Part shown: positions 40,263-50,123 of the stretch, piece after piece | Position numbering within the stretch: position 1 is the first letter of the stretch | Layout of the letters: each line of letters begins with the position of its first letter | DNA from: Ferroacidibacillus organovorans | GTDB lineage: Bacteria > Bacillota > Bacilli > Alicyclobacillales > SLC66 | Length of the DNA stretch: 55,329 bases | Reading direction: 5' to 3' | NCBI RefSeq assembly: GCF_001642725.1 | Contig: NZ_LSUQ01000013.1 | Span: 1-55,329 of the forward strand | Notes under the pieces: generated by a model | The model's database searches: none | Seen by the model: the letters and a program-made list of their open reading frames with translations, nothing else | What the model was told of the DNA's origin: nothing | Program-made: the position numbers and the translations under genes

Positions 40263-40649
40263 GTGATGTTGGCCAACTGTGAAGTATGCAACCGTCTATT
40301 TGCACAAACTGTCAGTCCTATGTGTCCGGATTGTGCAAAAAAAGAAGAGGACGATTTTGAACGAGTATCGCATTACTTGCGAGAAAATCGACAAGCAACG
40401 ATTAATGAAATTGTTGATGCATTAGAAGTGCCAAAAGGGCTCATTCTAAAATTCTTGAGAATGGGTCGACTTGAGCAGAGGGAATCTCTTAGTTATCCTT
40501 GTGAGGGTTGTAGTACGTTAATAACAAAAGGAAACTATTGTGAAATTTGTCAAGTGAAAAAACAGTTGATCATGGATCAAGTATCCAGTGGATTAAAGCG
40601 TACAAATTCAAAATCATCGAATGGATCCTATTATAGTCGCTCTCATTAA
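40263..40649 (+). CDS. yvyF: YvyF-like flagellar operon protein (TIGR03826 type)
   Basis: 128 aa with an N-terminal zinc-finger pair (CEVCNRLF, CPDCAKKEE), a helix-turn-helix-like middle (ATINEIVDALEVPKGLILKFL) and a second Cys pair (CEGCSTLI, CEICQVKK). This matches the protein found between comF and flgM in bacilli. Starts GTG 40263 or ATG 40266. In B. subtilis flgM follows on the same strand; here the flagellar genes are inverted and convergent. Function is not established. Confidence 0.83.
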   Translation: MMLANCEVCNRLFAQTVSPMCPDCAKKEEDDFERVSHYLRENRQATINEIVDALEVPKGLILKFLRMGRLEQRESLSYPCEGCSTLITKGNYCEICQVKKQLIMDQVSSGLKRTNSKSSNGSYYSRSH

Positions 40650-40654
40650 TAAGG

Positions 40655-40686
40655 GTGAGACGAGGAAAATCCTCTTCTCACTCTTT
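40655..40686. terminator. Convergent terminator between yvyF and the glycosyltransferase gene
   Basis: GTGAGA-c-GAGGA pairs with TCCTC-t-TCTCAC over an AAA loop, with short T and A flanks. It includes the stop codon of the minus-strand gene. Confidence 0.65.
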
Positions 40687-42933
40687 CACTTGAGCCCATG
40701 TTTTGGCCCAGCTCTCCCAAAATTCAATCGCACTTGCACGCTCTTCTGATTGTTCATCAATGATGTTTGGTTGCATGTACCAATTTATGCTCAGTCGATA
40801 GAAATAGGCGTACGTTTGATCCGTTTTCTGGGCTGCTTCTAGCGTAAGATCAAGCGAAGAGCGCAAAAAGGAGATAATCTCCTGCAATTGTTCAATTTTG
40901 GCTCGTCCCTCCATCACTTGATGATTGAGCGCGTCGGTGTGAATGCCGCGAACAAGGATTGCTGCCTTTTCGTGTAGTTGAGATAATTGCACATGTAAAG
41001 GTGTGGTCATCACACTTTGCGTTTGGTAAGATGCGATACGGTTCATAAAAAGCTCTCCCTTCTTGGTTTGGATCATTTGTCCAAGCTGTTTGCTAATATT
41101 TTGTAATAGCTGCGAATCTGGAAACAGTGTCAAGCCGTCTTCAACGTGTTTAAGCGCTTTTTCCGTTTGATTTTTTTGCAATAATAAATCACACTCCAGT
41201 GCGATTTTTGAAATGGTCACGGGTGTTTCGAGGCTTTTTACGATGAGTGCCTCGACGAGTGGAAAGTGTCCTTTTTGAAAGGAAGATAATGCATCCCATT
41301 CTAGCCATAGACTGTGTTCTTGCAAGGGACGGCAACCTTTGAAAATGTCTTTACGCGAGGTGTGTCTAAACCACCCATAAAAGTGATCGGCGTCTTCTGC
41401 GTATGGAAAAAGTAATGCAATGAGTGGGTAGGCGCGCGCGGCGATCAGATCCTTGATCACGCCGCTGAGAAGGCCGCCCTGAGAGGGCGTTCTGATCCAC
41501 GCTGCGAGGTTTCGGCCGCGACTGGTATGATCAAGTAATGAATAGCCAACTTCTTCACGGCCCTCCACCACGTGGATGATCCCGTTTATAACACGTGTCA
41601 TTTCATCATCAGAATTTGCATACGCAGATCGAAGCAGTGTGTACTTATCTTCGCAGTCCGTGAACCACATGCCTCGCTGAATCCATTCGGTTTTACCGAC
41701 GCGTGCCGCAATTCGTTCGATTACGTTTTCAGCGCCCGGCAAACGAAAGAGTGCGTACGATTCAGCGTAGATAGAGAGGCACAGCGCATCTTGAATTCTT
41801 GACTCAATATTTGTTTTGAGGAAGTCTTCATTTGCGGGCATGAGACTCAATAGATACGGAATAACGGTGTCAAAGGATGGATTTTCAAGAAAGGATTGCA
41901 AATACCATTTCTGTGCGGTGACAGGGTCACCGAGATGCATATAACACATCCCCATGTCAAAGGAACTATAAAAAGTGGACATTCCTTCCAATGTATCGAC
42001 AAAACTGAGCTTAGGTTCACCTACTCGTTTGCATTCCTTTAAGACTTGAATTGCCTTTTGGTAATTTCCCTTTCCCATATAGGCAATTGCCATTTTTCGA
42101 TAGAGTTCTGCGATATAAGGAAAGCGCGTCACGCCTTGCTCTGCGATCATGATCGCTCTATCCCAATCTTTTAATTCTGAGGCTGCTAAGGAACTGATGT
42201 TAAATAACCTCGGTAAATATAAAGGGAGCGCATCTGCAGACAAATCTTTTACCAGATCATATGTTTCTTCATAAAGTGGGAGGACATTTTTAAAATCTCC
42301 GATTCGCGCATACTCTACAATCATGTTTACAAGATGAAAGGGGTCAGACCGAGTTTGATCAAGTTGTTCTTTAAGCATGGCCATGTTTCGTTCGGGTTTC
42401 CTTTTGTGGGCAACAAATTCGCTGATATATCCAACATGGTGTATGGTGATAGGTGAGAACATAATATTATGGAACTCATGGTTTGTACCCAGATCAATTT
42501 GCTCATGAATGGAACCCGTATAGCGGTGTTTTTGCTTGAAGATTCTAACGGATTGTATAGGTGACGTTTTTGTTAATTTATTTACGCTACCCAAATAGTT
42601 GACGATTTGGACAAGGTAACCGTCAGCGGAGTTTGCTTCAAGAAAGGTGCGTATTTCAATCTGATCTTCTTCTTTAAAGTACTCGTCCGCATCAATGGTT
42701 AAAATATAGGTACCTTGAGCTGCTTCAATTGCTTTATTACGAGCGTTTGAGAAATTCCCATCCCACGTATAGTGAATGATATGTGCTTCATGATTTTTGG
42801 CGATTTCGAGTGATCGATCTGTACTTCCTGTGTCTGCAATGATGATTTCGTCTGCAATTCCTTTGAGCGAACGGAGGCATCGATCCAGGAGTAATTCTTC
42901 ATTTTTAATAATGAGGCAGGCTGTTAACAGCAT
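40678..42933 (-). CDS. GT2 glycosyltransferase with TPR repeats, likely for flagellin
   Basis: 751 aa. The N-terminal GT2 domain (about 1-220) has LTACLIIKNEELLLDRCLRS, IIADTGSTDRSLEIA and the metal-binding IDADEYF. The rest is helical, with TPR-like repeats (AELYRKMAIAYMGKGNYQKA, DMGMCYMHLGDPVTAQKWYL). Such SunS-like/tetratricopeptide GT2 proteins often modify surface proteins. It is the last gene of the flagellar minus-strand block, 11 bp after the fliT-like gene, so flagellin or another filament protein is a reasonable target. That target is inferred from context. Confidence 0.8.
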   Translation of the reverse strand: MLLTACLIIKNEELLLDRCLRSLKGIADEIIIADTGSTDRSLEIAKNHEAHIIHYTWDGNFSNARNKAIEAAQGTYILTIDADEYFKEEDQIEIRTFLEANSADGYLVQIVNYLGSVNKLTKTSPIQSVRIFKQKHRYTGSIHEQIDLGTNHEFHNIMFSPITIHHVGYISEFVAHKRKPERNMAMLKEQLDQTRSDPFHLVNMIVEYARIGDFKNVLPLYEETYDLVKDLSADALPLYLPRLFNISSLAASELKDWDRAIMIAEQGVTRFPYIAELYRKMAIAYMGKGNYQKAIQVLKECKRVGEPKLSFVDTLEGMSTFYSSFDMGMCYMHLGDPVTAQKWYLQSFLENPSFDTVIPYLLSLMPANEDFLKTNIESRIQDALCLSIYAESYALFRLPGAENVIERIAARVGKTEWIQRGMWFTDCEDKYTLLRSAYANSDDEMTRVINGIIHVVEGREEVGYSLLDHTSRGRNLAAWIRTPSQGGLLSGVIKDLIAARAYPLIALLFPYAEDADHFYGWFRHTSRKDIFKGCRPLQEHSLWLEWDALSSFQKGHFPLVEALIVKSLETPVTISKIALECDLLLQKNQTEKALKHVEDGLTLFPDSQLLQNISKQLGQMIQTKKGELFMNRIASYQTQSVMTTPLHVQLSQLHEKAAILVRGIHTDALNHQVMEGRAKIEQLQEIISFLRSSLDLTLEAAQKTDQTYAYFYRLSINWYMQPNIIDEQSEERASAIEFWESWAKTWAQVKE

Positions 42934-42944
42934 GGTAAAACTCC

Positions 42945-43271
42945 TTATTCAAATTTCCGGCTGGACATTGATTGATTCATTTGGTATGCGCGAAGTGCAG
43001 GGCTCGCTTTTACAAATGACGAAAACTCTTGACTGTTTTGCTTAATGATTACCGAGATTCGTTCGGCAATCTCCTGCGTTTCGTCATAGAGTTTATTGAG
43101 TTGTAACTCGGAAATTGTATCACTCTGTAAAGAGAGCACCAATTTCTGTAGGATAGACGTACGTTCGTAAGCGAGATACGGTAGAGTCTCTACTCTACCG
43201 TTATCGATTGCAAGAAGTACCTCTTGATATAAAGCGTGTGCTCGCTCAACCATCTCATGCGCCGAGATCAT
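42945..43271 (-). CDS. FliT-like flagellar chaperone
   Basis: 108 aa, largely helical (AHEMVERAHALYQEVLLAID, LYDETQEIAERISVIIKQN). No clear motif is visible. The assignment comes from size, helicity and its place directly after fliD, with overlapping ends (4 bp). FliT chaperones FliD before export. It could also be a FliS substitute, since no fliS is seen. Confidence 0.55.
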   Translation of the reverse strand: MISAHEMVERAHALYQEVLLAIDNGRVETLPYLAYERTSILQKLVLSLQSDTISELQLNKLYDETQEIAERISVIIKQNSQEFSSFVKASPALRAYQMNQSMSSRKFE

Positions 43272-44776
43272 GGTATAGCTGGTGCACTGCTTGAGGATGA
43301 AGCGCTAGAGCCGCCTCCGCCCATAAGTGAGGATAACAAGCTCATCTGTGACTGACTGTGCGCTAATGCGGTATTCAACGCATTGAGTTGGGCAGCGAAG
43401 TTCTGGACTTGCGCAGTAATTTGTTGATTAACTGTGGTCAAATAGTTTGAGATCGACGTTTGCTGCGCGCTGATGCTTGTCAATTCGGTTCCGATCTCAC
43501 CAGAACCAGCGATCGTTCCGTACCTGCTTAGCATCGTGGATACGTTCCCTAGAAGACCGCTTACGGGATATGCACTGGATGAGGTAATACCACTCACAAC
43601 GCCAAAGAAAGATTCAACAGCATTTTGATTTGAAGTGAGAGCTTGTGTAAACAAGGTCTGTCCGTTCTGGAGGGGTGCGCCACCAGCCTGAAACCCTGCA
43701 GAGGGTTGAAATTCGAGATGGCCTGTTGTGGGATCTGTGACAATTCCGATTTGCGCAAGCGCAGAAATTGTCCCACTCCCAACAGATTGATTGAGCGAAT
43801 TGGGCAGTTCAAAAAGTAATTGATTTGTGACCCCGTCTGAAAAAAGAGGGCCAACACTAGCTGCTGTATTACCGCTAGCAGGAGTATACGCTGTGCCACT
43901 GTGTATAAGATCGATGAGAGAGTTATAGGCGGACATCCACGATTGTACAGATTGAATCACACTGCTTGTATTCTGGGAAATTTGAACTGACGATGTCCCT
44001 CCTGACTGCAGTGCAGTGAATGTGACGTCAGGAATCGCATTGGAAAATGTATTGGTCTGCGATTGGACATTGATTGAGCCATCGATTGTGGCAGCTGCGT
44101 TTTGGGCAGTGACGGTTGCTGTTGATGCGGAGAGCTGGCTTGCACCTGTTGAAGTTGCTGAATCAGACAGTGTAAAGGAATTTGACAGACCCGTCTGTGT
44201 CGATTGAAACATCAACTCGTAAGGCGTTGAAGAACTTCCGGTATTGATTACGCTTGCTTGAACTGCGGTCGTCGCATTGTTCACGGCAGCTGCAATTGCT
44301 GAGAGACTCTCACCAGATGTTATTGAAATGGTGACTCCGCTTTGTCCACTTGGCGTGATTGAGAGACTTCCGCTTGCCAGTGTGGAACTTGCAGTGGCAG
44401 AAGACTGATGACCTGCCGTGGCTACATTGACTTGAGCCTGCGCGAGCTGTGTCACTGCGATCGTGTAGTTTGAATTAAGCGCACCCGCTGTAGCAGAAAC
44501 GGCAATGACCGCTGAATTTGAATTGGTAACATTGACAGGATTCCACGTTAATGTGCTTGCCAATGTATTACTCGCGTTTTGAAATGCGCTGAGCGCGGAC
44601 TGAAGCGATGTTAATGCGGTTTGCGTTCCGGACAGTGTGGCAAGCTCTGAAGTGGAAACACCGGTTAGTTGGGCAGTCAAAACCTTTTGCAGGTCCGTTG
44701 TATACTGCGTAACGGGAACGCCAATCCCACCTGGATTCGGAATTGTATTCAATTGTTGCAAGAGGTTGACGGACAT
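43268..44776 (-). CDS. fliD: Flagellar hook-associated protein 2 (filament cap)
   Basis: 502 aa. The FliD N-terminal domain is recognisable in DLQKVLTAQLTGVSTSELAT and LTSLQSALSAFQNASNTLAS, and the FliD central YTIAVTQLAQAQVN. The C-terminus (QQTSISNYLTTVNQQITAQV, LNALNTALAHSQSQMSLL) is the FliD coiled-coil. The cap folds flagellin at the filament tip. AAGGAG precedes the ATG. Ser/Thr/Gln-rich composition, common in exported flagellar proteins. Confidence 0.9.
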   Translation of the reverse strand: MSVNLLQQLNTIPNPGGIGVPVTQYTTDLQKVLTAQLTGVSTSELATLSGTQTALTSLQSALSAFQNASNTLASTLTWNPVNVTNSNSAVIAVSATAGALNSNYTIAVTQLAQAQVNVATAGHQSSATASSTLASGSLSITPSGQSGVTISITSGESLSAIAAAVNNATTAVQASVINTGSSSTPYELMFQSTQTGLSNSFTLSDSATSTGASQLSASTATVTAQNAAATIDGSINVQSQTNTFSNAIPDVTFTALQSGGTSSVQISQNTSSVIQSVQSWMSAYNSLIDLIHSGTAYTPASGNTAASVGPLFSDGVTNQLLFELPNSLNQSVGSGTISALAQIGIVTDPTTGHLEFQPSAGFQAGGAPLQNGQTLFTQALTSNQNAVESFFGVVSGITSSSAYPVSGLLGNVSTMLSRYGTIAGSGEIGTELTSISAQQTSISNYLTTVNQQITAQVQNFAAQLNALNTALAHSQSQMSLLSSLMGGGGSSASSSSSAPAIP

Positions 44777-44845: not shown

Positions 44846-45685
44846 TTAGCTAAGTAATTTGAGGATTGCTGCAGGCTGTTGTTGCGCCTGGCCAAGCATC
44901 GAAAGACCAACTTGCTGAAGAACTTGGTTCTGGCTGAACTGCGTATAGGCGGCCGCCATGTTCGTGTTCGTGATAACGGACTGCGCGTTTGAAAGGTTTT
45001 GCGATTCATTCTGAAGGCCGGTAATGCGATAGTTCAACTGATCCTGAACAGAGCCTAGGCTCGCTTGGTTGCTCGACAATAGGGAAATTGCCGATTGGAT
45101 TGCGGAAATTGCAGAAAGCGCAGCCGATTGGGATGTAATGTTGACAGATGCTGCAGATACGCCGAGTGAAGCTGACGTGATGTTATAAAGACTGAATGCG
45201 AGTTGGGACAGGCTAGATGAGTCAAACCCGACTTGCAATGTGACGACTGCGGAACTGGATCCATTGAGCAGGTGAATGGTGTTGAATTGTGTGCTGTTTG
45301 CCGTATTATCTACCTGAGAGACAAGGGCGTTCATCTCAGACTGCAGGTTGTTTAGATCCGCCGTATTCTGTGTTCCGTTGGCCGCTTCGACAGCAAGGCT
45401 GTTCATGGTTTGCAGAATGCCTTCGACCTGGTTCATCGAGCCTGTCGCAGTCTGAATCAAACTAACGCCTTGTTGAGCGTTTTGCACAGCTGTGTTGAGT
45501 CCGTTGACCTGGGAGGTCATCTGCTGGGAGATCGCATATCCAGCAGGATTGTCAGCAGCCGAGTTGATGCTGTTGCCAGATGATAATTGGGTGTAGGACG
45601 TGTTGATGTTGTTTTGAACGTAGTTCAAGTTGGACAAAATATTGGATGCTGCCGAGTTGTTGTTTACACTGAAATTGACTGACAT
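44846..45685 (-). CDS. hag: Flagellin
   Basis: 279 aa, a minimal flagellin with D0/D1 only. N-terminal NNNSAASNILSNLNYVQNNI and LSSGNSINSAADNPAGYAIS; C-terminal SVITNTNMAAAYTQFSQNQV and a final AILKLLS-type end. It is the filament subunit. It sits downstream of flgL with only 39 bp between, so it is probably read from the operon as well as from any local promoter; TATTAT/TATACA in the gap could be a -10. I see no sigma-28 consensus there. Its AUG is preceded by AGGAAGG. Confidence 0.94.
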   Translation of the reverse strand: MSVNFSVNNNSAASNILSNLNYVQNNINTSYTQLSSGNSINSAADNPAGYAISQQMTSQVNGLNTAVQNAQQGVSLIQTATGSMNQVEGILQTMNSLAVEAANGTQNTADLNNLQSEMNALVSQVDNTANSTQFNTIHLLNGSSSAVVTLQVGFDSSSLSQLAFSLYNITSASLGVSAASVNITSQSAALSAISAIQSAISLLSSNQASLGSVQDQLNYRITGLQNESQNLSNAQSVITNTNMAAAYTQFSQNQVLQQVGLSMLGQAQQQPAAILKLLS

Positions 45686-45724: not shown

Positions 45725-46636
45725 TTAACCGTTTGGCAAATAGGTGACGAGAGATGGCAACAGGATGCTTGCGCCCATCTTCAACGCAGCCTGATAGACG
45801 GTCTGGTCTGTGTTGAATTGAGTAATGACTTGCGCCATGTTCGCGTCTTGGATCACCCCCTTATCCGTACTCAGTGTTTGTGCGTACGTTGATAACTGGT
45901 TTTGTAAAGCGGTCAATCGATCCTGCCTGGCACCTACAGAAGCATTAAGGTCGGAGACCTGGCTGATGTTTGCCTGCAGGTTTGAAAGATCGCTTTGCAG
46001 AGCTGCGTTTGTTCCTGACGCGAGGTCGCTCGCGATGTTTGAAAGTGTCGTCTGTAAGTCTTGCGTTGCCCCGCTTGGCGTCGATTGCATAATCGAAGTT
46101 GCCGTCACATTGATAGATACCTGGATGCCGTTTGCGACCGTGTATTGAATCGATCCTGACGCACCACTTGGTGAGGTTCCTGTCGATAATGCATAACTCG
46201 AAGGTTGGACCTGATCAGCAAAGCCCCCGAAGAGATAGCGATTCTCTACTTTCGTATTGAGCAATTGACCGAGATTGCTCACGTCACTTTGTGCGACGTT
46301 GGCAAGCGCCTGACGGGCAGAGGAACTCGCTGTTGGCGCGTTTAAACCTTCTAGTACAGTAGACTGCAGTGATTGCAGTGTGGTCATCATCGTTTGAAGT
46401 GTGTTACTCGAATTGCTGAGCCACATTTGACCTGCTGCAATCGTTCCTGAATAGGCTGTCGTCTCTGAAAGCGATGCGCGAATGGCCATATCTTGAGAAA
46501 CGGCTAAAGGATTGTCGGAAGGCTGATTTAACGTTTTGCCTGTTGAAAGCTCGAGTTGTAGTGTCTGCATGTTTGCGTTTGCTTGCGTTAAGTTGTATAA
46601 AAATTGGCTTTGCATCATGGACTCTGTGACTCGCAT
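45725..46636 (-). CDS. flgL: Flagellar hook-associated protein 3
   Basis: 303 aa. The N-terminal MRVTESMMQSQFLYNLTQAN and LELSTGKTLNQPSDNPLAVS are the FlgL signature, and VENRYLFGGF is the second one. The C-terminus (LSTYAQTLSTDKGVIQDANM) forms D0/D1 helices. It links hook to filament together with FlgK. It lies 13 bp after flgK. AGGGA precedes the start. Confidence 0.93.
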   Translation of the reverse strand: MRVTESMMQSQFLYNLTQANANMQTLQLELSTGKTLNQPSDNPLAVSQDMAIRASLSETTAYSGTIAAGQMWLSNSSNTLQTMMTTLQSLQSTVLEGLNAPTASSSARQALANVAQSDVSNLGQLLNTKVENRYLFGGFADQVQPSSYALSTGTSPSGASGSIQYTVANGIQVSINVTATSIMQSTPSGATQDLQTTLSNIASDLASGTNAALQSDLSNLQANISQVSDLNASVGARQDRLTALQNQLSTYAQTLSTDKGVIQDANMAQVITQFNTDQTVYQAALKMGASILLPSLVTYLPNG

Positions 46637-46649
46637 CTTTTTCCCTCCC

Positions 46650-48161
46650 TTATGGAACGATTCCTAACAAGGTCTGCATCATCGCATTAAACACGGTGAT
46701 ATATTTGGCGGCGGCTCCGTAAGCGTTTTGGTACTGAACCATGAGTGACGCCTGTTGGTTTATATCAACACTAGAAACGGACTGACGCAGTGTTGATGAC
46801 TGTTGAGCGAGCGCCTGAGCGGTCTGGGCGTTATTCTGAACATTTGCGGTTTCGTTTCCGAGTGAAGAAGTCATTTGTGAAATGAGTTGATCTAATGTTC
46901 CTGTTGCGCTTGTTGAAGAGCTTGTTCCACTCGGAGAAGCGATCGTGTAAGAAATTGTGTAGCTCGTATTTTGTTGTGAAGCTAAATAAGATGCAAAATT
47001 ACCGTTCCCGGTTTGGCCGGGAGGTGGGGCGTCAGAGGCCGGCACTGTGTTAGGTGTAATTCCGGAATTTACGCTAAGAATTGCATTGCCGAATGCGTCT
47101 GTTGTGACCGTAAAGAACTGCGGACTCGGTGTGCCTGAATTGATGGGGTAACCTGTAATCGTTGTTCCGCTCGAAGTCGTTCCTGGATTTGTAAATGTTG
47201 AACTGATCTGATTTGCGATACTGCTCAATTGCGATAAGTAATTTCCTGTATCCGTCAATCCCTGACTATCTCCGGCAATCTGTCCGCTGCCGATCAACAG
47301 GTTTACTGAACCTGGTGTTTGCCCCGAAGCGGGTGTTGTGGGCGAATTGATCATCGTTGTGGTAGACGTCCCTGTCGACGAATTGACGATGGTTACAGAG
47401 CCAATCATGACGTTAACCGCTTCGCTTGGTATCGTTCCTGTACCGGAAGGAGAAGGGAATGCATTTGAGGATTGAGTGATTGTGATATTCGCGAGCTTAG
47501 CCATTTTATCGAGAATTGCGCCTCGTTGATCAAGAAGCGTGTTTGGACTCTGTAAGTTCTTTTGGACTGCAAGTATTTGATTGTTTAGTGTTGCCACTTG
47601 CGTTGCATACTGGTTGAACTGCGTGTACTCCTGGGTCACTTGAGACTGAAGGTTGGTTTGAACGGTTTCTAATTGGCTCGTGATCGTTTGCAAGGTTTGC
47701 GCCAATCCTTGGCCTTGAGTAATCACAGATTGACGCGCGGCTGTGCTTGAAGGGTCAGTCGAGAGTGTTTGCCAAGATGCGAAAAATTGGTCGAGCGATG
47801 TTTGAACACTCATGGAACTAGGTTCATTGAGTATACCTTCAATTTGAGTGAGTATCGTTTGATGCGCATTATACATTGCAGAGGTGCCTTGATTTGCTCG
47901 ATCCTGCTCATTATAAAAAGCGTTGATTTGTCGCGATACGGATGTGATTGAGGAACCTTGTCCCATTTGTCCGCCTATGAGCAATCCAACCTGTGTGGAT
48001 GCTGGCGGGAAAGGCGTTGCTTCTGTCGCGTTAGCCGTCTCCTGCACGTAGCCAGGGGTATTAGCGTTTGCGATGTTATTTGCAATCACATCTTCGGTTT
48101 GTTGTGCGCTGTTCAGCGCGCTCATTCCTACATTTAGGGCGTAAAATGTTGATATGTTCAT
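46650..48161 (-). CDS. flgK: Flagellar hook-associated protein 1
   Basis: 503 aa. FYALNVGMSALNSAQQTEDV, ANNIANANTPGYVQE (the flagellar rod/hook N-terminal motif) and the C-terminal SSVDINQQASLMVQYQNAYG and AAAKYITVFNAMMQTLLGIV match FlgK. It forms the junction at the hook tip. It lies 13 bp after the flgN-like gene. The length is normal. Confidence 0.93.
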   Translation of the reverse strand: MNISTFYALNVGMSALNSAQQTEDVIANNIANANTPGYVQETANATEATPFPPASTQVGLLIGGQMGQGSSITSVSRQINAFYNEQDRANQGTSAMYNAHQTILTQIEGILNEPSSMSVQTSLDQFFASWQTLSTDPSSTAARQSVITQGQGLAQTLQTITSQLETVQTNLQSQVTQEYTQFNQYATQVATLNNQILAVQKNLQSPNTLLDQRGAILDKMAKLANITITQSSNAFPSPSGTGTIPSEAVNVMIGSVTIVNSSTGTSTTTMINSPTTPASGQTPGSVNLLIGSGQIAGDSQGLTDTGNYLSQLSSIANQISSTFTNPGTTSSGTTITGYPINSGTPSPQFFTVTTDAFGNAILSVNSGITPNTVPASDAPPPGQTGNGNFASYLASQQNTSYTISYTIASPSGTSSSTSATGTLDQLISQMTSSLGNETANVQNNAQTAQALAQQSSTLRQSVSSVDINQQASLMVQYQNAYGAAAKYITVFNAMMQTLLGIVP

Positions 48162-48174
48162 CGTTTTTCACCTC

Positions 48175-48492
48175 CTACGCTTTTTCTTGAAAGGAACGGG
48201 ATGCCATAATCGTGCCCATCATTTTCTCTGAGAGTTTTTCGGCCTGCTGAAGCAACTGCTGTTGGGTATCACACATTTTATAAAGTTTGCCAAGTTCATC
48301 TCGTTGAGATGCTGTCAGTTGCGTGTTTTGTGATTCGATCATTCGTACGGAACTGCATTGTTCTGCAATGTAATGCAGCAATACATCTGGCCGGTTTTCA
48401 ATCAATGCAGCTTTCGCATTTTCCAAAGATGTGCGCAATTTGTCGATCCACGAATCAATCGCGTTGCTATTTTCTACAAAATTCGCCGTCAT
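48175..48492 (-). CDS. flgN: FlgN-like flagellar chaperone
   Basis: 105 aa, helical (IDSWIDKLRTSLENAKAALI, LGKLYKMCDTQQQLLQQAEK). It sits between flgM and flgK, exactly where FlgN (YvyG) is found in bacilli, and has the FlgN size. FlgN binds FlgK and FlgL before export. Sequence alone is weak evidence. Confidence 0.65.
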   Translation of the reverse strand: MTANFVENSNAIDSWIDKLRTSLENAKAALIENRPDVLLHYIAEQCSSVRMIESQNTQLTASQRDELGKLYKMCDTQQQLLQQAEKLSEKMMGTIMASRSFQEKA

Positions 48493-48505: not shown

Positions 48506-48778
48506 TCACATCTGGAATTTCGTTAGTTCGCTCGTGTTCATTATTTTTTGAGCGAGTGGACCCAAATCGATTACATAGGCGCCTTGGGCGATCGTCTGCT
48601 TTAATTGATCTAGTTCTTTTTGACGAGTTGCCGAAACCTTTTTTGAGTTTTCAGTCGCTACAGTTTGAGCTGTCTTTTCCTGTTTTACTTGATTCCCACG
48701 TTCTGCTTTAGTCTGGCTGTTTGTCCCGTGTTGAGCAGGTGTGGCGATCGACTTTGATAACGAATTAAAATTTGTCAT
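48506..48778 (-). CDS. flgM: Anti-sigma factor FlgM
   Basis: 90 aa. The C-terminal RQKELDQLKQTIAQGAYVID followed by LGPLAQKIMN is the sigma-28-binding helix region of FlgM; the N-terminal half is low-complexity and probably disordered, as usual. GAGGGGGT precedes the ATG. FlgM holds the flagellar sigma factor until the hook is complete. The gene immediately upstream encodes a sigma-70-like protein. Confidence 0.85.
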   Translation of the reverse strand: MTNFNSLSKSIATPAQHGTNSQTKAERGNQVKQEKTAQTVATENSKKVSATRQKELDQLKQTIAQGAYVIDLGPLAQKIMNTSELTKFQM

Positions 48779-48833
48779 CGGTGATCTACCCCCTCACTCC
48801 TATAATCGGTCGTATTTCGACTGATTTTGCGCT

Positions 48834-49388
48834 TTATCGCGATACATCCAATTTTTTTTTGAGTTTTTCTATGGTTTTTTGATAACGACGCGTAATGGTT
48901 GAGACAGCCACATCCAAAACGTAAGCAATTTCTGTGAAATTGTATCCATCCTTGATGTGCAAAGATAAAAGGAGTTGTTCATCATGACTCAATTCTTTTA
49001 ACGCATTCATAACGTCCATCCACAGTTCCTGATCAATGTTTCCGTCATCTGATGTAATATCAAGCGCGTGATCAATCGAGATCGTATTTGGCATTTGATA
49101 AGCCTGTAGTTTTTGTTGATAGGAGCGTGTGACTTTTACTGGATACGAATTGCGCACAGCGTCGCGCATAGCAAATTTGACTTGTTGGCGGAAGATGATA
49201 GCCAGCGCGTCAAAATCCCATGGACTACCTTCTTGATTTAGCCTCACACAAAACTGCCACCAACGATTTTTTGCGACCGCTATAAGGTCGTCCGCGTCAA
49301 TGATGCTACTCTTGCGAAGCTGAGTGTAGCGGTACGATAAACGTCGTATATAGGCGGTTTGTTCATCAGTTAATGAAAATAGATCCAT
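48834..49388 (-). CDS. Sigma-70-family protein heading the flagellar block
   Basis: 184 aa. Region 2-like DADDLIAVAKNRWWQFCVRL and region 4 ELSHDEQLLLSLHIKDGYNF-TEIAYVLDVAVSTITRRYQKTIEKL, a helix-turn-helix. It is shorter than FliA/SigD (about 250 aa) and lacks an obvious region 3. It directly precedes flgM, so it may be the FlgM target or a regulator of this block, but it is not a canonical SigD. The ATG has GGAGAG upstream. Confidence 0.72.
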   Translation of the reverse strand: MDLFSLTDEQTAYIRRLSYRYTQLRKSSIIDADDLIAVAKNRWWQFCVRLNQEGSPWDFDALAIIFRQQVKFAMRDAVRNSYPVKVTRSYQQKLQAYQMPNTISIDHALDITSDDGNIDQELWMDVMNALKELSHDEQLLLSLHIKDGYNFTEIAYVLDVAVSTITRRYQKTIEKLKKKLDVSR

Positions 49389-49508
49389 AGATGTTCTCTC
49401 CGTTGATCCGCTTCAATAGAATTGCAAACTATAAGATTTACCATATCACAAAAGGGGACGAAGTGTCTGAAGGAATCAATAATATATATCTAAAAATTCC
49501 GCCGATCG

Positions 49509-49565: not shown

Positions 49566-50123
49566 ATGAACATTCACATTCGTGGTGATCATCATTTGGA
49601 CGTCACGCAAGCTCTCAAGCAGTATGTTGAGAAAAAAGTGGGGCGCATGGAGCGCTATCTTGAGGCTTCGCAAGTGCACGATGTGTCAGTTACGATGAGT
49701 GTCACGCGCGGTATTCATACCGTTGAGGTCATGGTTCCGTTGGGACAAGCTATGCTCAGGGCGGAAGAACGCTCAGACGATATGTATGCGTCAGTCGATC
49801 TGGTGATGGATAAACTTGAAAAACAACTGGAGAAATATCGGCATCGCGCGGGTCAGAAAGTGGGGCACCGCCTTAAAGTAGAAGGTTTCAAAGCAAAAGA
49901 AGGTCCACGCGTAAGCGTGACGGATGAGCAACTGGAAGAAGATGAAGCGGATGTTGTGCGCGTGAAGCGTTTTGATATGAAACCGATGTATGTTTCTGAA
50001 GCGATTCTGCAAATGGATCTTCTCGGTCACGATTTTTTTGTCTTCGCGAATGCAGAGGATGAGAAAACGAGTGTCGTCTATCGCCGACGCGATGGACAAT
50101 TCGGATTGATCCAGTCGCTGTAA
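49566..50123 (+). CDS. hpf: Long-form ribosome hibernation promoting factor
   Basis: 185 aa. The N-terminal S30AE domain (NIHIRGDHHLDVTQALKQYV, YMSV-like strands, DDMYASVDLVMDKLEKQLEK) binds the 30S subunit. The C-terminal dimerisation domain (VVRVKRFDMKPMYVSEAILQ, GHDFFVFANAEDEKTSVVYR) makes 100S ribosomes. The long form is typical of Firmicutes. GGGAGGC precedes the ATG. As in B. subtilis (yvyD), it lies next to secA and prfB. Confidence 0.94.
   Translation: MNIHIRGDHHLDVTQALKQYVEKKVGRMERYLEASQVHDVSVTMSVTRGIHTVEVMVPLGQAMLRAEERSDDMYASVDLVMDKLEKQLEKYRHRAGQKVGHRLKVEGFKAKEGPRVSVTDEQLEEDEADVVRVKRFDMKPMYVSEAILQMDLLGHDFFVFANAEDEKTSVVYRRRDGQFGLIQSL

Follow-up and report, generated by a model that had tools for sequence, protein, structure and literature searches.

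A FliA-like two-domain sigma factor beside flgM in Ferroacidibacillus organovorans and its relatives, probably a late-flagellar sigma factor

Introduction

The sigma factor FliA/SigD (sigma-28) and its partner FlgM provide the first point of comparison for the locus described here, which encodes a short sigma-70-like protein that we call Sig. An excerpt of PMC2859248 gives the sigma-28 promoter consensus as TAAAGTTT-n11-GCCGATAA. Like FliA/SigD, Sig is encoded beside flgM, has a FliA-like region 4 and is accompanied by candidate promoters of similar geometry, and it stands in for FliA across much of its order. Unlike FliA/SigD, it has no domain 3, its region 2 has diverged, and it scores far under the cut-off of the FliA_WhiG model. 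The -10 element of the Sig sites is also different, reading GACCGTTATA or GACCGATTATA where the excerpted FliA/SigD consensus has GCCGATAA.

With domains 2 and 4 only and a length of about 180 aa, Sig is built like the ECF (group 4) sigma factors. It differs from them in adjoining FlgM, in its FliA-like region 4 and in its conserved flagellar locus. Another relative in structure is WhiG of Streptomyces and related bacteria, the second-ranked match of Sig among solved structures. WhiG is a three-domain sporulation factor and is not known to have an FlgM partner.

The closest reported case, going by the excerpted text of PMC12826043, is RpoE6 of Azospirillum brasilense, an ECF factor in an organism without FlgM. 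That text describes a 192-aa protein encoded inside the filament gene cluster, which controls a flagellin and also metabolic genes and has its own anti-sigma factor, Asf6; it states that the organism has no FliA or FlgM homologue. RpoE6 as portrayed there is a sigma factor of similar size to Sig and is likewise placed with filament genes, but the Sig locus keeps FlgM, and Sig takes the place of a FliA. Searches of open-licence PMC papers listed neither a FliA without domain 3 nor a protein that replaces FliA in this order.

Results

Organization of the late flagellar cluster

The window, by which we mean the whole stretch of 55,329 nucleotides that was analysed, carries Sig as a minus-strand open reading frame of 184 aa with an ATG start and a TAA stop. 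The sequence-only reading had placed it directly upstream of flgM at the head of the late flagellar block, and this arrangement is borne out, with a gap of 55 bases between Sig and flgM and the genes from flgK to fliD beyond. The basis of each assignment is given in brackets.

48834..49388, minus strand: Sig, 184-aa two-domain sigma factor without domain 3 (ORF, profiles, AlphaFold model, Foldseek)
48506..48778, minus strand: flgM, anti-sigma factor of 90 aa, with a Shine-Dalgarno-like GTGAGGGGG at about 48789-48797 (profiles)
48175..48492, minus strand: gene of 105 aa for a flgN-like export chaperone (place in the cluster; weak similarity among relatives)
46650..48161, minus strand: flgK, hook-associated protein 1 (TIGR02492, 239 bits)
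45725..46636, minus strand: presumably flgL, hook-associated protein 3 (position and recall)
44846..45685, minus strand: presumably hag, flagellin (sequence and recall)
43268..44776, minus strand: presumably fliD, filament cap (position and recall)
49566..50123, plus strand: hpf, ribosome hibernation factor, a divergent neighbour and no part of the switch (profiles)

The flgM product passes its Pfam cut-off (PF04316, 26.7 bits, cut-off 25) and falls under the stricter one of TIGR03824 (34.6 vs 40.75 bits, E 2.5e-8). A convincing Pfam match was not found for the flgN-like gene. Only 39 bases separate flgL from hag, which apparently belongs to the same operon. Upstream, beyond hpf, lie two genes that we take to be secA and then prfB. 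At the other end of the cluster, the gene after fliD (40678-42933, minus strand) encodes a 751-aa protein that combines a family-2 glycosyltransferase, TPR repeats and a C-terminal FliS domain, and is probably a flagellin glycosyltransferase with its own chaperone domain.

Domain composition of Sig

Residues 129-178 of Sig match sigma region 4 (PF04545, 26.7 bits, cut-off 24.1); the Pfam models for regions 2 and 3 gave no match when the window protein was searched alone. Residues 14-180 pass TIGR02937 (47.1 bits, cut-off 42.9), a general superfamily model although it bears the name sigma70-ECF. This general sigma-70 cut-off is the only one passed among the best 25 NCBIfam matches, and FliA_WhiG scores 34.2 bits, far below its curated cut-off of 189.6.

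The same composition is seen across an alignment of 29 homologues (A1), the window Sig counted in. Region 4 is found in 29/29 and region 2 in 8/29 (Pfam, E<=0.01), the latter being too diverged for Pfam in the other 21, while region 3 (PF04539) is found in 0/29 at E<=0.01. As a control, the same procedure matched region 3 in all 19 of 19 FliA proteins. FliA_WhiG matches every one of the 29 homologues at E<=0.001 (best 7.7e-19). The 28 aligned with the window Sig are 28-53% identical to it and share 11 invariant columns. The sequence-only description of Sig as a two-part sigma-70-like protein without clear region 3 is thereby confirmed: region 4 is present, region 2 is present in divergent form and region 3 is absent.

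An AlphaFold model of Sig (11 sequences, pLDDT 74.9) has sigma-2-like helices at residues 8-98, a low-confidence linker at about 99-119 and the sigma-4 helices at about 120-183; it contains no domain-3-like helices. In Foldseek the seven best solved structures are of SigD, WhiG and sigma-28/FlgM, with E<0.001 for the first alone, and the VIA-align list mixes FliA-type with ECF factors, largely through domain 4. We used the family ranking alone from these structure searches because the pTM is low (0.42), the placing of the domains is untrustworthy and the full-length rmsd is large.

Sigma factors of the host genome

The host genome (3.03 Mb, 96.8% complete) carries flagellar genes and gave 5 matches for MCP genes. 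It holds no FliA_WhiG match above the curated cut-off. The top match scores 127.7 bits, and the top three proved on inspection to be SigA, SigF and SigG. FliA proteins of relatives within the order score 174-209 bits with this model, seven of them, at 174-185 bits, also lying below 189.6. We considered a canonical FliA elsewhere in the host and rejected it, the translated matches having been read by eye as SigA, SigF, SigE, SigG and SigK; the check for another fliA proposed from the sequence thus turned up none. Among the matches listed, G011 and G037 have a fourth FliA_WhiG match at E<=1e-15. A plasmid collection searched with the Sig protein gave no match.

The host also carries a second sigK-like gene that is split in two, its N- and C-terminal parts lying on one strand of contig C17 with about 6 kb between them (34820 and 41266; L008, L011), an arrangement that resembles a skin-type insertion in sigK. 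An intact sigK-like gene lies on C81.

Sig and FliA nearly exclude one another

Three queries were used to compare 59 genomes of the order: Sig (A1 profile, counted above 100 bits), FliA_WhiG (counted above 170 bits, the next among the matches listed scoring at most 133) and FlhA. Sig is present in 34 genomes, in two of them cut by contig ends (G014, G051), and FliA in 17, with both in 2 (G053, G057). Three further genomes (G035, G039, G048) have a FliA-like form without domain 3, which we refer to as the intermediate. FlhA is present in 54 of the 59, and these divide into 15 with FliA only, 31 with Sig only, 2 with both, 3 with the intermediate and 3 with none. The near-exclusion of Sig and FliA gives a Fisher p of 6e-7, a statistic that ignores kinship. 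In the host's family, Sig is present in 15/15 FlhA-positive genomes and FliA (>170 bits) in 0/15.

In two of the genomes with neither factor, G046 and G052, no flgK match exceeds the cut-off. This excuses them weakly because the same holds for G043, which has FliA, and for G051, with its cut Sig. The true exception is G050, where flgK is present, neither factor is found and the FlhA frame contains one stop. Near its flagellar genes this genome encodes an additional sigma factor of 466 aa in which regions 2, 3 and 4 are all present (L175 5258-6658, G050:C51).

In a survey of the class (398 genomes drawn, at most 8 candidates scored per genome), Sig-profile matches above 60 bits occur in this order only, among the matches listed. 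Those listed from outside the order mainly cover region 4 of longer proteins, and six of these that we read are SigD-like by inspection.

Sig and FliA occupy the same slot beside flgM

Of 29 loci examined, 28 have flgK on the strand of Sig and downstream of it; given this and the homologues in 34 of the 59 genomes, the Sig reading frame is not a chance one. FlgM (PF04316, E<=0.05) is encoded within about 0.8 kb of Sig in 32/34 Sig genomes and scores above the curated cut-off there in 27/34. The two misses are the genomes in which Sig is cut by a contig end. In the five FliA loci that we read (L101, L104, L111-L113), FliA holds the slot of Sig before the flgK cluster, the gene order being a comF-like gene, a relative of window 40263-40649 (which we take to be yvyF), FliA and the flgK cluster. 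FliA has another place in G059, the class outgroup, where it comes after a gene row containing flhA.

We also aligned 31 FlgM proteins. By eye, an aromatic residue soon after a G in the C-terminal part is mostly kept in the proteins from Sig and intermediate genomes, and the six taken from FliA loci within the order show a form shorter by one residue. Two FlgM forms are as expected if FlgM co-evolves with its partner.

Sig comes in two types, Sig-A, to which the window protein belongs, and Sig-B, and some loci are more elaborate. L109 (G053) holds two pairs about 3 kb from each other, FliA with a flgM-like match below the cut-off and Sig-B with a second flgM. L183 (G032:C163) reads Sig-B, its motif type, flgM, a methyltransferase gene, Sig-A, its motif type and flgN-flgK. 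A gene for a methyltransferase-domain protein of 294-298 aa precedes Sig-A in three genomes of the second family:

L181, 7320-8216: methyltransferase-domain gene before Sig-A
L183, 9704-10594: methyltransferase-domain gene before Sig-A
L110, 10914-11798: methyltransferase-domain gene before Sig-A

The promoter motif before flgM varies with the sigma factor

Two candidate promoters flank Sig in the window.

48801..48831, minus strand: proposed Sig-dependent flgM promoter, with -35 CGCAAAAT (48831-48824), a 12-base spacer and -10 GACCGATTAT (48811-48802) (motif scans)
49440..49450, minus strand: candidate sigma-A-type extended -10 TGTGATATGGT in the gap between hpf and Sig, proposed to drive Sig (by eye, low confidence)

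The site in the gap between Sig and flgM, CGCAAAAT-N12-GACCGATTAT, has sigma-28-like geometry. In FliA-bearing relatives the stretch after FliA contains a site of the type GCAAGTTT-N12-CCGAT in 9 of the 15 loci tested, out of 17 FliA genomes (regex GCAAR-N13-17-CCGAY), and this site resembles the excerpted sigma-28 consensus. Sites of the form GCAAG...CCGAT also precede hag in FliA genomes: by eye, five of nine upstream regions have a clean copy and three an imperfect one, and the ninth (G053, where hag lies in the Sig cluster) has none. No such site was seen by eye in 19 hag regions of Sig genomes. A different motif is common to the hag regions of G037 and G001, and a scan then located this motif immediately behind Sig in several genomes. 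Reading all Sig ends gave the consensus CGCAAAAA-N12-GACCGTTATA.

With a pattern and boundaries chosen after many sites had been viewed, and so not blind, GCAAA-N13-17-CCG is present in the interval -60..+110 around the end of Sig in 17 of 21 Sig-A genomes, against an expectation of 0.78 from other windows of these loci. The misses are G015, G057, G006 and G001; imperfect versions are present in G015, G057 and G001, and in G006 the motif lies 411 bases further on, before a relocated flgM. A position weight matrix was trained on six sites of one family (f2) and tested on 15 genomes of another (f1), on both strands and with spacers of 9-13 allowed. In this train/test split, with block boundaries chosen by eye, the top hit of the whole locus falls in the target in 13 of the 15 (all but G006 and G001), always with a spacer of 12 bases; G007, G013 and G016 among these 13 belong to one genus and have nearly the same site. 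The matrix scores the flgM site highest in the 55-kb window (19.4 vs 15.6).

A strict pattern, likewise chosen after viewing many sites and so not blind, has 14 distinct sites in 37 whole genomes, and its reversed control has 2. Nine of the sites lie directly after Sig (9/17 Sig-A genomes), two before hag (G037, G057) and three elsewhere. The 13 FliA genomes have 0, the 7 Sig-B genomes have one, away from flgM, and in the host genome the flgM site is the only match. The sites at G024 C11, G037 1038326 and G032 C160 were taken as chance, with no evident flagellar gene behind them.

Sig-B loci have a third type of motif. A -10-like GACG(T/G)(T/A)(G/A)T follows Sig in 8 of 9 loci by a regex run without chance control, three of the nine being near relatives and G056 being the one without the motif, and a GAACGA-like -35 is seen by eye. 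Where both forms of Sig occur, in G032, the Sig-B-type site follows Sig-B and the Sig-A-type site follows Sig-A. By eye, the -35 element itself encodes ARKK at the C terminus of Sig in several relatives. No motif was seen by eye before motA in FliA or Sig genomes, motA lying mostly close behind another gene, and in Sig genomes hag mostly sits a short way behind flgL. The evident Sig regulon is therefore small.

Descent of Sig

The FliA-like proteins of G035, G039 and G048 (A4; INTERMEDIATES) have Pfam regions 2 and 4 in 3/3 and region 3 in 0/3. The first of them scores 143.5 bits for FliA_WhiG, in two stretches. The intermediate is followed by flgM on the same strand in G035 and G048, and in G039 flgM adjoins it on the opposite strand. 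By eye, the linker reads SIDH or SLDH in Sig-A, SLDQ in the intermediates and SLEE or SIDE in FliA; Sig-B proteins have no such motif.

We weighed two origins for Sig. It may be a FliA that lost domain 3, or an ECF (group 4) factor that was captured into the flgM locus, displaced FliA and took FlgM as its anti-sigma factor. The two-domain architecture is that of ECF factors, and the ECF model PF07638, which narrowly misses the window Sig (20.5 bits, cut-off 21.1), matches 17/29 homologues at E<=0.01; it also matches 1/3 intermediates. The Sig-B motifs have by eye an ECF-like GAAC in the -35. Against capture stand the FliA_WhiG matches to all 29 homologues, the domain-3-less FliA-like proteins directly before flgM in G035 and G048, the Sig-A linker motif, which by eye resembles that of the intermediates and FliA and is absent from Sig-B, and the sigma-28 geometry kept in the Sig-A motifs.

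Profile comparisons do not separate the two origins. The Sig-A profile matches pooled FliA at 7e-17, the intermediates at 6e-16, ECF factors at 7e-15 and sporulation sigma factors at 1e-14; with two smaller FliA profiles the values are 7e-15 and 3e-14, no better than with ECF. The Sig-B profile gives 5e-14 with FliA, 7e-16 with the intermediates, 1e-12 with ECF and 4e-9 with the sporulation factors. In a first tree its two ECF factors adjoin Sig, which would favour capture, although we suspect long-branch attraction. A larger tree with 22 ECF-group rows argues the other way, setting Sig beside SigD and the intermediates (support 84/83) and apart from the ECF factors; the order's own FliA lies apart from Sig in this tree, and the ECF factors fall inside FliA. 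The AU test rejects neither Sig with ECF (p 0.318) nor Sig with FliA and the intermediates (p 0.194). Taking these lines together, we regard capture of an ECF factor as unlikely and descent of Sig from FliA as likely, the tree favouring the latter weakly.

Discussion

We propose, with a probability of roughly three in four, that Sig is a late-flagellar sigma factor doing the job of FliA/SigD, and most probably a FliA shortened by loss of domain 3. This proposal draws on the domain make-up of Sig, the host genome in which no FliA was found, the near-exclusion of Sig and FliA, the linkage to flgM, a motif that depends on the sigma type and the existence of domain-3-less FliA-like proteins. From these we infer FlgM binding by Sig, its promoter use, its timing and its descent. 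The sequence-only reading had suggested that Sig may be a divergent target of FlgM, or else a regulator of filament genes peculiar to the lineage. A host in which no FliA was found, Sig in 15 of 15 FlhA-positive genomes of the family and a sigma-28-like motif before flgM all point indirectly in that direction.

Sig is most likely a switch protein that turns on late flagellar genes, with FlgM and a promoter of its own retained. It would first be made from the sigma-A-type promoter recognized by eye and be held inactive by FlgM. Upon completion of the hook-basal body, FlgM would be exported and Sig freed. Freed Sig, together with RNA polymerase, would then fire the promoter that overlaps or follows its own 3' end and drives flgM-flgN-flgK-flgL-hag-fliD. 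Domain 2 would read the -10 element and domain 4 the -35 element, with a linker left between them after the loss of domain 3. Such a loss need not abolish FlgM control because, in the excerpted text of PMC7406223, the inhibitor of FliA (printed as FliM, with a citation of the sigma-28/FlgM structure) contacts sigma-2 and sigma-4 and not sigma-3.

Sig could also be an accessory regulator of a few genes, with sigma-A reading the late genes and FlgM binding another target or none. The sigma-A-like promoter seen by eye before Sig could indeed read the whole late cluster of the window, and the motif occurs at few other genes. This reading is nevertheless very unlikely, given a conserved motif between Sig and flgM that is unlike that of sigma-A and varies with the sigma type, and given that FlgM is kept beside Sig in FliA-less genomes, which is hard to explain if it has no target. 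That Sig is what is left of a decaying FliA and lacks sigma activity, as the strong divergence of region 2 might suggest, is scarcely credible in view of its presence in 34 of 59 genomes (two copies cut by contig ends), the conservation among its 28 homologues and the flagellar gene sets that persist without FliA.

For a late-flagellar Sig derived from FliA, we lean towards a history in which the order's flagellar checkpoint sigma factor would have been stripped from a three-domain sigma-28 to an ECF-like two-domain form by way of domain-3-less FliA-like proteins. FlgM and the locus would have been kept, and the promoter language would have drifted into at least three dialects (FliA, Sig-A and Sig-B), each found at flgM. 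Three pairs of sigma factor and motif at one gene form a natural set for the co-evolution of -10 and -35 recognition with the sigma factor. Surveys for FliA by NCBIfam-type models would overlook Sig and see an orphan FlgM, because among its best 25 matches Sig passes the general sigma-70 cut-off only. With this family two questions become testable: can the FlgM checkpoint do without domain 3, and can a larger sigma factor shrink to an ECF-like one? If our reading is true, a group 3 sigma factor can become ECF-like in architecture by reduction.
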